Shown: positions 2 to 6,300 of the stretch, piece after piece | Layout of the letters: each line of letters starts with the position of its first letter | Position numbering within the stretch: the first letter of the stretch is position 1 | Source: Candidatus Hodarchaeota archaeon | Lineage (GTDB): Archaea; Asgardarchaeota; Heimdallarchaeia; Hodarchaeales; YT1-057 | Length of the DNA: 6,300 bases | Direction: 5' to 3' | Assembly (NCBI GenBank): GCA_016839955.1 | Contig: JAEOTI010000395.1 | Span: forward strand, 1 to 6,300 | Position numbers and translations under genes: made by a program | Notes under the pieces: model-generated | What the model was told of the DNA's origin: nothing | The model's input: only the letters and a program-made list of their open reading frames with translations | The model's database searches: none

Positions 2-1033
2 TATGTCGCAGAATCCCATGCTAATGTCCTTTTGAAGATCCTCAGACAACTCCCTCTTTATCCTTCTCTTGTTGATGAACAATCTATTATTGATTTTATC
101 GCCCTTGAATTGACACGAATTCCTATTATTCTCAAGAAAAATGATGTCCGGATGATTAAACTATTTCTTAACCCTGAATTCCTAGCTTCTAATCACTATA
201 TCTTCCCTTCGGATGAGAGATTCGCTCGCCAATTAGGATTGACTGATGCCACTGCCACAATGCGCCTTCAACGATTAATTGATGTTAAAACGTTCAACCT
301 ACAGTACTTTATTCATCCTTCCGTCTTTAATTATTCCATTCATCTCATCGAACATGACTGGCCACTTGATGCTTCCTTAACGCCCTACACCTTACACTCT
401 TTCCAGGTGCTCCCTCATCGGGGACATTCTGCAATACTACTCCCTAATTCAATTGACTTTTCTTCAAAAATCATCACTCATTCAACACCTTCCGATTATT
501 ATCTTCATTGGAATCTCGACCAACTCGATCAATGGAACATGGAAAGTTGGGCAGACTGCCCAGAATTTAATCCCTGGTTAAAAACTAGCGAAAATTTTCA
601 TACAACGATCCCCCTAACCCAATCTCATTCTCCCTCAGACGAAGAACTTGATCTTTTGAAAGGCATCTTTCGATCCCCTGAGAATTTTAATTTACTAGAC
701 CAAGAATTAGTAGAATTTGTGGAAGAACACGTTGTTATTCCTATTCCCTCTGTTTCACATGTTGGTCTTGAAAATCGTGTTTTCTTTTCTGCAATAGGAA
801 CAAAAGTTGACGATATTACTCAAGCATTCCTTCCTTTTCCCCATGTCGAACTTTTGCAATCAGAAAATCATTTGTTAGGAATTGTAGATCTCCCCAAGAC
901 CTGGGTGTATGATTTTCTCCAGACTCTTGAAAACCTGAAACTTGAAGGATTTACTCTATATTATAAAACAGCTTCTCTTGAAACCATCTACAATCCTTGG
1001 AGACCAATTAACTTTTTCAAGAATGAAAGTTAA
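2..1033 (+). CDS. Helix-turn-helix protein, 5' end probably outside the window
   Basis: The frame is open from base 2 with no stop, so the gene probably starts upstream of the window. The first possible start inside it is a TTG at 32, which would give 333 residues. Counting from that TTG, residues about 58-84 (FPSDERFARQLGLTDATATM then RLQRLID) have the shape of a helix-turn-helix of the Lrp/AsnC or winged-helix kind: a helix with small residues, a GL turn, a recognition helix, then RL. A beta-like stretch follows (YFIHPSVF). The remaining 230 residues hold no motif I recognise, though the C-terminal third has an alternating beta/alpha look that could be a ligand-binding or dimerisation domain. 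No membrane segment or signal peptide is visible. It lies 63 bases upstream of the SWIM gene on the same strand. A DNA-binding regulator is inferred from the HTH alone, and the target is unknown. Confidence 0.7.
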   Translation, partial: YVAESHANVLLKILRQLPLYPSLVDEQSIIDFIALELTRIPIILKKNDVRMIKLFLNPEFLASNHYIFPSDERFARQLGLTDATATMRLQRLIDVKTFNLQYFIHPSVFNYSIHLIEHDWPLDASLTPYTLHSFQVLPHRGHSAILLPNSIDFSSKIITHSTPSDYYLHWNLDQLDQWNMESWADCPEFNPWLKTSENFHTTIPLTQSHSPSDEELDLLKGIFRSPENFNLLDQELVEFVEEHVVIPIPSVSHVGLENRVFFSAIGTKVDDITQAFLPFPHVELLQSENHLLGIVDLPKTWVYDFLQTLENLKLEGFTLYYKTASLETIYNPWRPINFFKNES

Positions 1034-1096: not shown

Positions 1097-1807
1097 ATGA
1101 CATTGAATGAATCAATGACTAAAACAATCCATGAATTCAACTTATTCCAAGCAGTCAAAAAAGCTGAAAACAAGCTTTACAAACTAAAAGGTATTACTAA
1201 TGTTAATTATTTAACGAATACCATCCTAATTGACCGTATAATCTATTCTAATGAAAAAACTCAGTTGTCATTCAAATTAACTCTTGCCGAAGATTTTACT
1301 GTCACCTTAACCAGTATTATTGATTCATTGCACCTTAACCAACCACTCAATAAAAGAGTTATAGCGCAATTCCTCTCTTCACTACTACAACTAATTATTT
1401 TTTTTACCAAATTAGAAGTTCTTCCTAAAAGACCTGCCACTATTAACATTGATTTATCCCCCACCGACTACAAGACCTATCGGGAAGTCATCCTTTCATT
1501 ATTCAATGGGTGGCAGTACAAGTACAACCAAAAACAATCAGTCTTAGAAATCTACCTACAATATGATCGCTGGATTCAACGCTGGCAGGTTAAAGGTAAA
1601 AGTGGAAATTATGTTATCGCCATTGATCGTGATGGTCAATGGGGATGTTCCTGTCCAGGTTGGACCAAGAATAAAGACCGATCTTTTTGTAAGCATATCA
1701 AATATATCAAGTCACAACGAGAAAAGGGTGTTAAATTAACAGGAATTATTGATCTGTCCCAACCCCGCTCTCCTGATGGACTTACTCAAACACAACTTTC
1801 TTTCTAA
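1097..1807 (+). CDS. SWIM zinc-finger protein
   Basis: This is a 236-residue soluble protein with a C-terminal SWIM-type zinc-binding motif: C184-x-C186, eleven residues, then C198-x-H200, preceded by a beta hairpin (about residues 163-183, VKGKSGNYVIAIDRDGQWG). CxCx(n)CxH is the defining SWIM signature. In known families it binds nucleic acid or partner proteins, for example in Sws1-type recombination mediators, plant FAR1-type regulators and some SWI2/SNF2-associated proteins. The first 150 residues match nothing I can name. They read as mixed alpha/beta with a hydrophobic helix around residues 88-104 that is too isolated to call a membrane span. A second ATG at codon 7 is an alternative start; 1097 was chosen for its TATA spacing. 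It sits between an HTH gene and two winged-helix genes on the same strand, which favours a role in DNA transactions or regulation, but no partner can be named. Confidence 0.85.
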   Translation: MTLNESMTKTIHEFNLFQAVKKAENKLYKLKGITNVNYLTNTILIDRIIYSNEKTQLSFKLTLAEDFTVTLTSIIDSLHLNQPLNKRVIAQFLSSLLQLIIFFTKLEVLPKRPATINIDLSPTDYKTYREVILSLFNGWQYKYNQKQSVLEIYLQYDRWIQRWQVKGKSGNYVIAIDRDGQWGCSCPGWTKNKDRSFCKHIKYIKSQREKGVKLTGIIDLSQPRSPDGLTQTQLSF

Positions 1808-1810
1808 ATT

Positions 1811-1868
1811 TTCTCCTTTTTTAAGCATTCAATTCCATTATGTTTAACTTTGGATTGTAACTATTATG
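1811..1868 (+). repeat. Upstream block, copy 1 (paired with 2361-2418)
   Basis: This 58-base block ends exactly at the ATG of the first winged-helix gene. It is repeated, without gaps and at an offset of 550 bases, before the second gene. By hand count 47 of 58 positions agree. The strongest parts are TAAGCATTCAATTCCAT (17 of 17, from 1822) and TTGGATTGTAA (11 of 11, ending at 1860). It includes a TATA-like TTTTTAAG at 1818-1825, so it probably holds a promoter plus an operator or leader. Similarity stops upstream of about 1811 and directly after the ATG. Confidence 0.85.
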
Positions 1869-2318
1869 AATGGATATGTACTTCCCTCTTTTACGATAAA
1901 TGAATATATAAATATCTTTTTAGACGCAATAGACTTCCCAAACCTTGAACTGCTAAATTATTTAATTGTTGATATTATTAAGAGAGGATTCTTACAACCT
2001 TATCCTCTTGAGACTTTATTTTCTGAGCTTACCCTTATTCCTAATAATATTTTATCCGATTTAAGACATTTAAAGAAACTAAAAGTTATAGATCTAGAAG
2101 AAGATGATAACCAAAATATCTCCGCAATTTTCCTTGAACCAGGGGCATTAATAACTCAAGAACTTCTCTCTTGTCATTTTCCTGAAAGAAATCTCCCAGA
2201 AACTTATATAGAATTATTAAAACGGGGTTTAGCGTCTACTCAGGACTTTAAAAGGACTTTAACATTAATGGTATATTTATTAAAGATCTATAACGATTTT
2301 TGTGGATTAGATTACTAA
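1866..2318 (+). CDS. Small winged-helix protein, tandem copy 1
   Basis: This is a 150-residue soluble protein. The central part (about residues 28-85) reads as a winged-helix DNA-binding fold: a helix (LLNYLIVDIIKRGF), then PLETLFSELTLIPNNILSD as the helix-turn-helix, LRHLKKLKVIDLEE leading into the wing, and a beta strand ending in FLEPG. The C-terminal 60 residues are mostly helical (ELLSCHFPERN onward) and could dimerise. It is a paralog of the gene at 2416: the LxVDxI, GF, P-x2-TL, I-x7-L-x2-L, LEP, IT and CHFPE/FHFPE positions correspond, with about 30% identity by eye over the shared core. It has its own upstream block (1811-1868) and no Shine-Dalgarno site. A small transcription regulator is inferred. 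The family itself is unknown to me. Confidence 0.75.
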   Translation: MNGYVLPSFTINEYINIFLDAIDFPNLELLNYLIVDIIKRGFLQPYPLETLFSELTLIPNNILSDLRHLKKLKVIDLEEDDNQNISAIFLEPGALITQELLSCHFPERNLPETYIELLKRGLASTQDFKRTLTLMVYLLKIYNDFCGLDY

Positions 2319-2360
2319 TTTCATCCCCACTTTGATAAACAACTTACTCAAGATTTTAAT

Positions 2361-2418
2361 TTCTTCCTTTATAAGCATTCAATTCCATATCTTTTGACCT
2401 TGGATTGTAAATACTATG
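2361..2418 (+). repeat. Upstream block, copy 2 (paired with 1811-1868)
   Basis: This is the second copy of the 58-base block. It ends exactly at the ATG of the second winged-helix gene, so the distance from every conserved element to the start codon is the same in both copies. Its TATA-like box is the better of the two (TTTATAAG, 2368-2375). Initiation about 25 bases downstream would fall near 2397-2401 and give a short leader containing the conserved TTGGATTGTAA. That element is therefore either a downstream operator or part of the mRNA leader. Confidence 0.85.
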
Positions 2419-2847
2419 ACAGATCCCATAACCACTTTACTCACAATTTCGGAATCTATTACTTTCGATATATTGAATTGCTTGGTAGTTGATGTTATAA
2501 ACCATGGATTTAATCACTCTTTTCCTGTAGATACCTTAATTGCAGAAGTTAATCATTCTCCTTCTCAAATTTTTGAAGAAATTCATCGTTTGGTAAATCT
2601 TGGAATTATTCATCGTCAAAAAAGAGATTGTAAAGATGAAATCAAGAATATAATACTCGAACCTCAATCAAAAATTACTTGGTTCTTACTTAAGTTCCAT
2701 TTTCCAGAGAATAATAATGAACAAATTGCTGAATTTCTCGCTTTACGTGAAATAGAAACTCTACGGAAAAAGGAACAAGCTTATCAATTCCAAAGCACTT
2801 ATTTAGGAACTCTAATTAGTATGTTAACCGATCACAAGAATGGTTAA
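2416..2847 (+). CDS. Small winged-helix protein, tandem copy 2
   Basis: This is a 143-residue soluble protein, paralogous to its upstream neighbour (1866-2318), 97 bases away. The winged-helix core is clearer here: ILNCLVVDVINHGF, then TLIAEVNHSPSQIFEEIHRL as the helix-turn-helix, LVNLGIIHRQ as the end of the recognition region, and a strand with IILEPQ. The LGII before the wing is typical of small archaeal and bacterial wHTH regulators. The last 45 residues are charged and helical (around FLALREIETLRKKEQAY), possibly a dimerisation helix. The start at 2416 is fixed by the conserved upstream block. The stop codon lies inside the right arm of a 9-base inverted repeat (2842-2850). Autoregulation through the shared block is an inference. 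No known family is recognised. Confidence 0.75.
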   Translation: MTDPITTLLTISESITFDILNCLVVDVINHGFNHSFPVDTLIAEVNHSPSQIFEEIHRLVNLGIIHRQKRDCKDEIKNIILEPQSKITWFLLKFHFPENNNEQIAEFLALREIETLRKKEQAYQFQSTYLGTLISMLTDHKNG

Positions 2848-3237: not shown

Positions 3238-3480
3238 TTGGATAAATCCGCTTCCGCCCTCGTGTCTCTTTCTTTCGTATTTAATCTCATTTCAATTCTT
3301 GTATTAACAGACGTTCATGACCCAGAAGAATCAAAATTTTTAGTACAACTAATCTCCCTAGTAGAAGGAATTTCAATAGTTATATTTCTAGTAGCTATTC
3401 GAGATAAAATAACTGAAGCACTTGAACGAGTCGTCTTCAAAGGTCTTGCAAGTCAATGGAGTTATGTTGAGAAGGAATGA
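3238..3480 (+). CDS. Small membrane ORF without a good start, possible 3' remnant
   Basis: This frame encodes about 80 residues, with two hydrophobic stretches: about residues 7-23 (ALVSLSFVFNLISILVL) and about 34-54 (FLVQLISLVEGISIVIFLVA), followed by a charged tail (IRDKITEALERVVFKG). Codon choice resembles the neighbours, and the pattern is that of a real two-helix membrane protein. The frame is open from 3232, and the only starts are TTG 3238 and GTG 3262. No ribosome site or clear TATA box lies at the right distance. Its 5' end overlaps the N-terminal extension of the - strand gene. It could be a short intact protein or the C-terminal end of a longer membrane protein cut by a rearrangement. 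No family recognised. Confidence 0.4.
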   Translation: MDKSASALVSLSFVFNLISILVLTDVHDPEESKFLVQLISLVEGISIVIFLVAIRDKITEALERVVFKGLASQWSYVEKE

Positions 3481-3540
3481 AGAGAATTAGAATAAATCTT
3501 AAATGAATAAACGCCATATAAAAAATGGAAAAATCTTTAC

Positions 3541-3650
3541 TAGGCTTTCTAACGGTAGCGAAAGTTCTGAGGAGCAAATAGCAGTTAGACTGTTCTAGCG
3601 TCAAGGGTTGAACGAACGCCCCGTCGTGGGTTAGTAAATACCTTGACGTG
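3541..3650 (+). ncRNA. Candidate structured RNA, family unknown, strand assumed
   Basis: GC content is 53 of 110 bases against roughly a third in the flanks. A 9-pair stem closes the right half: 3598-3606 (GCGTCAAGG) with 3641-3649 (CCTTGACGT, last pair G-U). Inside it AACgCCC (3615-3621) can pair either with GGGTT at 3605-3609 or with GGGTT at 3628-3632, so two alternative hairpins exist. To the left, CTTTC (3545-3549) pairs with GAAAG (3560-3564), and TAGCAGT (3579-3585) pairs with ACTGttCTA (3589-3597). No Rfam family is recognised with certainty. The AGCGAAAGyT-type segment loosely recalls domain I of group II introns, but no reverse transcriptase or domain V is present. The opposite strand is equally possible. 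Confidence 0.35.
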
Positions 3651-3775
3651 ATTTTCTCCCCCTTCTTCCCCAATGAAAGTAAATACAAGAATTTGGAAAA
3701 AGGCTGGGAAATGAAATTTGAGTTAAGAGGGTTTAACATAAGGAGCCTGAGATAGAGAAGAATAAGTTAAGAAGC

Positions 3776-3816: not shown

Positions 3817-4464
3817 GTGCCCAACCAGAATGTAGAGCTAATAGAATGTGCTCTGTGTAAGAGTCCAACATGTAAAGAATGTGCGACGCCTTATAGAGGA
3901 GACGATTTGAAATATATTGGATTGATCTGTAAGGAATGTGTCTGGGAACAGGCATCTTCAACTGATGATATAAATAGAAAGAAATTCACGTTAAAATTTT
4001 TAATGTCTTTTATACCAGTGTTGAATTTTTATTATTATTATGTAGTAGTGTTTTATATTCGATACCTCCCTTTAAATCCCAGCAATTGGCTAACTCATTA
4101 TCGAAAAGAAATGCAAGAACTAAATGAGTTAGCAGAATTACCTTATTTTCATAAAAGTCGTAAACCTAAATCAGTATATCCAATGGGATATATTTTACCA
4201 GGATTCTTATTCTTTCCACTATTAATAATATGGATTGGAAGTAATAATAGTAATCGAAGTCCTGTCTTTTCTCTAGAATTCACAATTTTCTACTTTATAC
4301 CTCTTTCAGGTATATGGCTCGGTATGATGGTAAATGTTATTGTAGCAGATCGCTATCCAATGAAAAGACTATATTGTAATCATATACCAGATGACCAAAA
4401 GAAGAAGGGAAGAAGGAAAAAATATGAGATTTTTAGTGGAAATATTGGTCCTTATACACCTTAG
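3817..4464 (+). CDS. Three-helix membrane protein with N-terminal six-cysteine zinc site
   Basis: This protein has 215 residues and starts at a GTG supported by a ribosome site. The N-terminus holds three CxxC pairs, C11/C14, C19/C22 and C38/C41, in the form of a small zinc-ribbon or B-box-like domain (ECALCKSPTCKEC, then LICKEC). Three hydrophobic spans follow at about residues 61-81, 124-141 and 155-177, with loops of about 42 and 13 residues. The C-terminus is strongly basic (DQKKKGRRKK), which by the positive-inside rule suggests a cytoplasmic tail and, with three spans, an N-terminal zinc domain on the opposite face. Such a site would more often be cytosolic, so one span may be re-entrant. 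Zinc-ribbon membrane proteins of this sort are common and uncharacterised in archaea. No enzymatic motif is seen and no function is claimed. Confidence 0.8.
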   Translation: MPNQNVELIECALCKSPTCKECATPYRGDDLKYIGLICKECVWEQASSTDDINRKKFTLKFLMSFIPVLNFYYYYVVVFYIRYLPLNPSNWLTHYRKEMQELNELAELPYFHKSRKPKSVYPMGYILPGFLFFPLLIIWIGSNNSNRSPVFSLEFTIFYFIPLSGIWLGMMVNVIVADRYPMKRLYCNHIPDDQKKKGRRKKYEIFSGNIGPYTP

Positions 4465-4526: not shown

Positions 4527-4802
4527 ATGACTCTTCACACTGAGACTTTCTTCAAAATCCCCCAAATCGACTTACTTTCTATTGCTGTCCTGATGAATAA
4601 AGGACGTTTCAAAGGTACTTCGCTTTATTGGTTACTTAGTCAGACTTTTCACAATAATATCCAACGTGATTACTCTATGAAAAATTTTGACACTATTAAT
4701 GATTATCAATTAACAAAAAACAAGCATTTCCTATCATTTTACCAATTTCTAAAACAAAAATTTCCTATTTTATGGGGAGAATTTCAACCAATAAAGGAAT
4801 AA
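4527..4802 (+). CDS. Small hypothetical protein
   Basis: This 91-residue ORF has an ATG start, 62 bases after the membrane-protein gene on the same strand. The product is basic and aromatic-rich (LYWLLSQTFHNNIQRDY, HFLSFYQFLKQKFPILWGEF), with no Cys pair, membrane span or signal peptide. I recognise no family. No ribosome site precedes it. A T-rich patch at 4475-4486 could be the terminator of the previous gene or a weak TATA-like element. Codon use is similar to neighbours. It may be a genuine small protein or the remnant of a larger one; nothing in the sequence decides. Confidence 0.45.
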   Translation: MTLHTETFFKIPQIDLLSIAVLMNKGRFKGTSLYWLLSQTFHNNIQRDYSMKNFDTINDYQLTKNKHFLSFYQFLKQKFPILWGEFQPIKE

Positions 4803-5094: not shown

Positions 5095-5835
5095 ATGATG
5101 AATGATAACAAAAACTCCAAGAATCATTTTAAAAATGTAAAGGGAATAATTCTTGACTTAGATGGCACTTTAATCAACTCGATGCCAGTAATTTATGCTG
5201 TAATTTATAAAAAATTACGACGTCATGGAATAACATTATCCCATGGAAGGAAGATTGGGCAGGCGCTTTTCAACAAGCTTTCCACATCCTCACTCCCTCA
5301 AGGAAAGAGAATGGTGCCCCTACTAATGTATAAAGTTGCCAGAGCTGCGGGATTAGACAGAATCCGTTCAGTAATCTTTGTAATTGAAGCAACAATATTA
5401 CTTGGAAAAGCCTATGACAACGCAGAACTATTCCCCGGAACAGTAGACGTTCTGAAAAGTCTGTTAAATCAAAATATTAAACTTGGCCTAGTTTCTATGA
5501 GTTCCAAAAAAGGAATTAATAAAATTCTAACACGAACAAAAATTCAAGACTTTTTTTCGATTGTTATTTCAAGAGACGAGGTTACAAAACAAAAACCAGA
5601 TCCAGAAGCTTTCATGTTGGTTCAACAAAGGTTTCAAGTTGAACCAGAGGCAATTGTCGTGATAGGTGACTTACCAACAGATACTCTTGCAGCTAATCGA
5701 GCTGGAATGCTCTCAATTGCAGTAACAACTGGATTAGCAGGCCCAGAGTGGTTCCAAGGGAGCTCAACACCTACAACAATTATTAGTTCTTTAACAGAAT
5801 TAGAGTCTCTATTTAACCCAAGAAGTGAATTATGA
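5095..5835 (+). CDS. HAD-superfamily hydrolase (phosphoglycolate phosphatase-like)
   Basis: This is a complete 246-residue HAD phosphohydrolase with all four motifs in order. Motif I is DLDGT with nucleophile D21 and acid/base D23. Motif II is LVSMSS with S134. Motif III is K167 in KQKPDP. Motif IV is GDLPTD with D192 and D196 for magnesium. The roughly 105 mainly helical residues between motifs I and II form a C1-type cap, as in phosphoglycolate phosphatase, PpaX-type pyrophosphatase and beta-phosphoglucomutase. Length and order are normal for that group. The substrate cannot be told from sequence, so no gene name is given. Motif II has S-M where T/S-N is usual. ATGATG gives two adjacent starts (5095, 5098); an in-frame stop at 5086 rules out extension. 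A cytosolic location is expected. Its stop overlaps the end of the convergent membrane-protein gene by six bases. Confidence 0.93.
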   Translation: MMNDNKNSKNHFKNVKGIILDLDGTLINSMPVIYAVIYKKLRRHGITLSHGRKIGQALFNKLSTSSLPQGKRMVPLLMYKVARAAGLDRIRSVIFVIEATILLGKAYDNAELFPGTVDVLKSLLNQNIKLGLVSMSSKKGINKILTRTKIQDFFSIVISRDEVTKQKPDPEAFMLVQQRFQVEPEAIVVIGDLPTDTLAANRAGMLSIAVTTGLAGPEWFQGSSTPTTIISSLTELESLFNPRSEL

Positions 5836-6294
5836 GCTTTCGAGTTCATTAATGTCCTCTTCATTCCACTCAAGGTTAATAGGAATAGTTGTAGGATCTA
5901 TTGGATGTCCCAGTTCCTGTCTACTTCTTGAGATCATTTGGCGTTCTCTGAGGATTTTGTATCCTGAGCAACGGCCAACTAATCTTAAATCTGCTTCGGT
6001 ACAAGCTTCACAGATTTTTTCACCTTTAGCAGCTCTCAACTTTGAAACAATGTAAAGACCAATGAGAAAATGGAAAAGGATTATAATTGCCACCCACCAT
6101 GGAGACGTCATTGTTGCTAAAACAGAAAGTGGAATGGATAAACCAAGAAGTAACTTTGAAAAATCTCTTAGTAATTGCCTAACATGAAAAGGTAGAACAG
6201 AAAAGAGAAATACTGGAAAAATTAGAGTATAAAGTACTAAACCTTTAGAAATTGGGTTAATATCTTGATAAAGCGAGAATAATAGAGGTACCAT
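5830..6294 (-). CDS. Membrane protein with Cys-rich C-terminal domain, may continue past the window
   Basis: At least 154 residues are visible, with an ATG at 6294. The two codons before it in the window are sense (ATC, CTC), so an upstream start outside the window cannot be excluded. Three hydrophobic spans lie at about residues 17-35, 46-62 and 66-84. A basic link (SKLRAAKGEK) leads to a soluble tail with C95 and C98 (CEAC), C109 (RCSGYK) and an acidic end (WNEEDINELESS). The basic residues after the third span suggest that the tail is cytosolic. Three cysteines are one short of a usual metal site; H128 or a partner residue could complete it. I do not recognise the family. It converges on the HAD gene with overlapping stop codons. 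Confidence 0.8.
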   Translation of the reverse strand: MVPLLFSLYQDINPISKGLVLYTLIFPVFLFSVLPFHVRQLLRDFSKLLLGLSIPLSVLATMTSPWWVAIIILFHFLIGLYIVSKLRAAKGEKICEACTEADLRLVGRCSGYKILRERQMISRSRQELGHPIDPTTIPINLEWNEEDINELESS

Positions 6295-6300
6295 GAGGAT

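Follow-up and report, generated by a model that had tools for sequence, protein, structure and literature searches.

Introduction

Small archaeal regulators that act on their own promoters are the closest described counterparts of the system considered here. LrpA of Pyrococcus furiosus occupies a site in its own control region immediately past the TATA box and excludes RNA polymerase, as described in PMC2995911, and the same source presents Lrs14 as a protein that represses its own gene via promoter occlusion. Here we analyze a stretch of 6,300 nucleotides (hereafter the window) from Candidatus Hodarchaeota archaeon (contig JAEOTI010000395.1 of assembly GCA_016839955.1), in which two diverged tandem paralogs are each preceded by a copy of the same 58-base block that ends at the ATG. 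The evidence supports well that this block is a real, non-random and conserved promoter-like region, and we suggest that it might also carry a regulatory site that the paralogs share.

Results

A conserved block upstream of two old tandem paralogs

The two copies of the block, at 1811-1868 and 2361-2418 on the plus strand, include the ATG of paralog 1 and paralog 2, respectively, lie at an offset of 550 bases and agree without gaps at 47 of 58 positions, exactly as an earlier reading of the letters alone (the sequence-only reading) had reported. This corresponds to 81% identity against 33% expected by chance from composition, and when the window was simulated with a first-order Markov model, the best 58-base match never exceeded 37 identities in 20 runs or 41 in 200 runs. 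A repeat finder returned a slightly longer pair (1810-1869 and 2360-2419, 82%). The 11 mismatches fall at 1815, 1817, 1821, 1839-1842, 1846, 1849, 1861 and 1864 in the numbering of copy 1. When 20-base segments were compared at the offset of 550 in steps of ten, those starting at 1810-1850 gave 14-18 matches, those at 1800 and 1860 gave 10 of 20, and all others from 1740 to 1950 gave 3-12; past the ATG, identity drops to background. A wider duplication that takes in the end of the upstream SWIM-like gene was looked for, but the similarity there is not significant (P 0.16).

Behind the blocks lie paralog 1 (1866-2318, plus strand, 150 amino acids) and paralog 2 (2416-2847, plus strand, 143 amino acids), both possible winged-helix regulators, whose proteins share 38% identity over 84 amino acids (E 7e-17) and 31% over the whole alignment, in line with the roughly 30% estimated before. 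Across 135 aligned codons, identity at codon positions 1, 2 and 3 is 48%, 59% and 38%, respectively, and the same third base is kept in 22 of the 41 identical residues that follow the initial methionine. Since third positions are near random (33% is expected by chance from composition), the duplication is an old one, after which the block was retained far better than the near-saturated silent sites, which were lost. Conservation of non-coding DNA beyond that of coding DNA, as proposed by the sequence-only reading, is thus borne out by the contrast between 81% in the block and 48/59/38% at codon positions; the equal conservation of synonymous sites that would point to a simple recent duplication is not seen, as third positions agree at 38% against the 33% expected. 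The proposal that the two genes have nothing in common in their first codons is correct for residues 2-9; thereafter, it gives way to an ungapped T-I-x-E-x-I match, noted by eye at the offset of 550, which suggests that the N-termini are also homologous. A profile scan of all frames revealed no third paralog in the window (best other E 0.15), and the protein encoded at 4527-4802 shows no relation to either paralog (P 0.53 and 0.71).

Conserved cores at a fixed distance around a putative transcription start

Two cores that had been singled out in the block proved to be fully identical between its copies. Core 1 (TAAGCATTCAATTCCAT, 1822-1838, plus strand) agrees at 17 of 17 bases with its second copy at 2372-2388 (plus strand), and core 2 (TTGGATTGTAA, 1850-1860, plus strand) agrees at 11 of 11 bases with 2400-2410 (plus strand). 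By the mismatch list, the spacer between them (1839-1849 and 2389-2399, both on the plus strand) agrees at 5 of 11 bases and differs at six, yet its length is unchanged, and the core centres stay 25 bases apart in both copies. The sites at 1822 and 2372 are the sole matches to core 1 in the window when up to three mismatches are allowed (shuffle mean 0.04). Core 2 is not rare by itself, as two mismatches allow seven sites in the window against 4.1 expected, a number reached in 27 of 200 shuffles.

Core 1 overlaps a TATA-like box, a function proposed from its sequence and position. Its two versions, TTTTTAAGC (1818-1826, plus strand) and TTTATAAGC (2368-2376, plus strand), each start 48 bases before the ATG, and the motif TTTWTAAGC has just these two sites, 1818 and 2368, on both strands of the window, so that the cores lie over and just downstream of the box. 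Archaeal TATA boxes are located about 27-28 bases before the transcription start (PMC5316973, PMC8553660), and archaeal leaders are short, with a median of 12 nucleotides in Thermococcus onnurineus (PMC5316973). Given this distance and the position of the box, transcription is predicted to start near 1848-1852, that is, at the head of core 2, which fits the earlier placement of core 2 at or just after the expected start. The promoter-like box, together with the orphan character of the proteins, would itself suggest an archaeal host. A sigma-70 scan of 1700-2500 returned two sites against 4.2 expected from shuffles, with no plus-strand site in either block; one minus-strand site (2382-2353) overlaps block copy 2.

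Family and fold of the paralogs

The best NCBIfam match of paralog 2 is SarA (TIGR01889, E 4e-4), which scores 20.6 bits where the cut-off is 62.6, and there are weak profile matches to Sta1 (E 0.045) and Lrs14 (E 0.067) with 13-14 bits against cut-offs of 80-90 (for the Lrs14 family NF040939, 13.2 against 90 bits); paralog 1 gave no match to TIGR01889. The low-confidence model of paralog 1 contains a helix-helix-helix-strand-strand core with MarR-type likeness, and its Foldseek rows are mostly of MarR/ArsR type, with AbfR2 at rank 3 and also SarA. The model of paralog 2, likewise of low confidence, has no wing and no MarR-type likeness. From these profiles and models, both paralogs may be small winged-helix, MarR/Lrs14-like regulators, an assignment that is weakly supported, and with these hints a repressor acting on the block, as suggested by the sequence-only reading, is plausible. 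PADLOC matched paralog 2 to PDC-S51 (E 0.0013) over residues 67-141 only.

Other searches for relatives were negative. PHROGs held nothing for either paralog up to E 1, sequence searches of solved structures with paralog 2 and with the two-row alignment A1 gave nothing below E 0.19, and one search of 5.8 billion proteins with each paralog, which reaches only relatives sharing 5-residue words, found only the query itself. Paralog 1 had no match in viral contigs or plasmids, and paralog 2 had none in phages. The single locus returned by a scan of genome contigs with alignment A1 overlaps, in antisense, a 1032-amino-acid frame of a Lachnospiraceae metagenome-assembled genome and was judged to be a chance match.

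Occurrence of the block elsewhere

The block is not a promoter common to the genes of the window, as none of five further starts that were compared with it, at 1097, 3817, 4527 and 5095 on the plus strand and 3220 on the minus strand, shows any likeness to it (P 0.23-0.85). Beyond the window, the viral contigs, plasmids and phages that were scanned are collections other than the source genome. Exact copies of core 1 were present in 11 viral-contig stretches, several of them mutual copies; by eye, none of the 11 has core 2 at the window's distance after core 1, and in one of them core 1 is followed at a short distance by AGGATTGAA, which is similar in part. The combined pattern had 0 matches in viral contigs, and a pattern running from core 2 to the ATG had two, both within long reading frames (one antisense, one in-frame). 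When DNA 1780-2450 was compared with plasmids and phages, 19 plasmid and 17 phage records matched, and the 10 listed from each set share short stretches of 34-49 bases with it. Among these, the sole outside match over most of a block was found in Bacillus phage G (49 bases over window positions 1808-1856, most of copy 1; 83.7%, E 0.02), further listed matches being to the coding part. The phage match was taken as chance, since the gene that contains it on the opposite strand, gene 330, carries a homing endonuclease annotation. Literature searches found nothing on this block, by which we make no claim that it is absent from print.

Discussion

We propose that the block combines the core promoter of these old tandem paralogs with a regulatory site, that selection has kept it, and that the paralogs themselves perhaps bind it; we would give this explanation an even chance of being correct. 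The TATA-like box TTTWTAAGC would direct a short transcript to begin near core 2, and one or more regulators would bind the conserved cores over and just downstream of the box, where their presence would keep the transcription machinery from assembling or being loaded. The most likely binders would be the two paralog products themselves, and the combination of auto- and cross-regulation might preserve the likeness of the two operators as the bodies of the proteins diverge. A shared operator-promoter would be expected to preserve the cores and their spacing and to release the spacer and the coding part. We count in its favor that the spacer has changed at six of its bases without a change in length, and that the block runs from near the TATA-like box to the ATG. 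In this respect, the shared cis element put forward by the sequence-only reading gains support from the identity of the block and the near-random third positions. Both the operator role and self-binding are conjectural, and two observations call for caution. Core 2 matches the reverse complement of core 1 imperfectly and not significantly, and no exact inverted repeats of at least 5 bases were found; the absence of a significant dyad would speak against a simple dimer operator. Furthermore, for AbfR1, an Lrs14-like protein of Metallosphaera, DNA interaction was described as non-sequence-specific in a study whose probes included its own promoter region (PMC12529230).

Several other processes could produce two similar promoters beside diverged genes. 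Local gene conversion, in which recombination homogenizes the promoters and the tract ends at the ATG where the coding parts mismatch, is in our view unlikely. Two tandem copies separated by 550 bases could serve as a recombination substrate, and neither the longest identical run (17) nor the sum of the two longest (28) is unusual for 11 randomly placed mismatches (P 0.17 and 0.10, respectively). However, some 60 bases is short for homologous recombination, and functional cores with a free spacer explain somewhat better why four mismatches stand side by side (P 0.04) in a spacer whose length is unchanged. The block might instead be a regulon element or a promoter type of many genes, read by a factor encoded elsewhere, with the paralogs as only two of its members. 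Regulon cis elements keep their spacing, and nothing links binding to the paralogs' own products; however, the block is absent from all five further gene starts of the window that were tested, and we regard this possibility, too, as an unlikely one. It is very unlikely that a dispersed short repeat or the end of a mobile element gave both genes a promoter. This would account for highly identical non-coding DNA beside diverged genes, but the two copies end at an identical position with respect to the ATG and occupy homologous places of a tandem duplication, and the viral contigs that hold 11 exact copies of core 1 hold none of the combined pattern.

It could also be asked whether the block is conserved for what it encodes. 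The mismatches are distributed over codon positions as 4/5/2, 5/2/4 and 2/4/5 in the three frames, and since there is no clear phase bias, the block is probably not a conserved reading frame. A conserved short peptide in the frame of the upstream gene is the most improbable of the explanations that we considered: this frame is open across both blocks, and the last four mismatches (1846, 1849, 1861 and 1864) are all at third positions, three of them silent by eye, but all 11 mismatches together divide as 2/4/5 by codon position, and by eye a common ATG start is absent. The idea of an RNA-level regulator, also raised by the sequence-only reading, was not supported. A leader of only about 16-18 nucleotides is expected, the predicted RNA folds differ between the copies, and Rfam, searched up to E 1, gave no match anywhere in the window. 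Of the two copies, only block 1 has a low fold energy (reached by 10 of 200 mononucleotide shuffles, against 86 of 200 for block 2).

A shared promoter and operator is a familiar kind of arrangement; the most likely cause is ordinary and its interest modest. Nevertheless, if the two orphan proteins share and read one operator, the locus would be a compact case in which to ask how regulators that split long ago stay wired together in a lineage with poor sampling, and the block could readily serve to probe the remaining regulon. It is also conceivable, but decidedly improbable, that the paralogs belong to a lineage-specific regulator family whose relatives elsewhere are undetectable, in which the operator-promoter is the conserved unit and the proteins turn over quickly. 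In that event, operator identity, rather than protein similarity, would define the family across the genome.

Neighboring genes

Upstream of the block, the gene at 1097-1807 (plus strand) encodes a protein whose match to the SWIM zinc finger is below threshold (E 0.0054). The search of 5.8 billion proteins by shared 5-residue words found only this protein itself; the lineage behind the window may have been sampled very poorly. It is preceded by an open frame of 343 amino acids (2-1033, plus strand), cut by the start of the window, with only marginal helix-turn-helix matches (AsnC-type, E 0.21). Downstream, a HAD-family hydrolase (5095-5835, plus strand; HAD_2, E 9e-29) gave the sole Pfam match over the cut-off among nine proteins scanned; the ten listed among its 275 plasmid matches are from Sinorhizobium, at 28-29%. 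The products of 3817-4464 (plus strand) and 5830-6300 (minus strand) show, by eye, cysteine pairs plus hydrophobic stretches and match no Pfam family over the cut-off; they are perhaps membrane proteins with a zinc-binding part. Viral contigs held no relative of the SWIM-like, 3817 or HAD proteins. G+C is somewhat raised (0.41-0.42) at 3500-3724, which is covered by a minus-strand frame of 100 amino acids (3437-3739); the fold of 3520-3680 is not unusual (z -0.43 and -0.06), with no Rfam match up to E 1.

Comparison with known regulators

In its proposed mode of action, the locus resembles that of LrpA, a small DNA-binding regulator of the Lrp/AsnC family whose site in its own promoter borders the TATA box downstream (PMC2995911). 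Unlike LrpA, two paralogs here share one putative site, and neither of them matches the Lrp/AsnC profile. SarA/MarR proteins are similar in that TIGR01889 tops the profiles of paralog 2 and several structural rows of paralog 1 belong to them; however, the profile score is 20.6 against 62.6 bits, and the structural likeness comes from low-confidence models. As for the Lrs14/AbfR/Sta1 proteins of the Sulfolobales, paralog 2 scores far under the family cut-offs (13-14 against 80-90 bits), but it is to Sta1 and Lrs14 that its weak matches point, AbfR2 holds Foldseek rank 3 for paralog 1, and Lrs14 is negatively autoregulated (PMC2995911), as we propose for the two paralogs.
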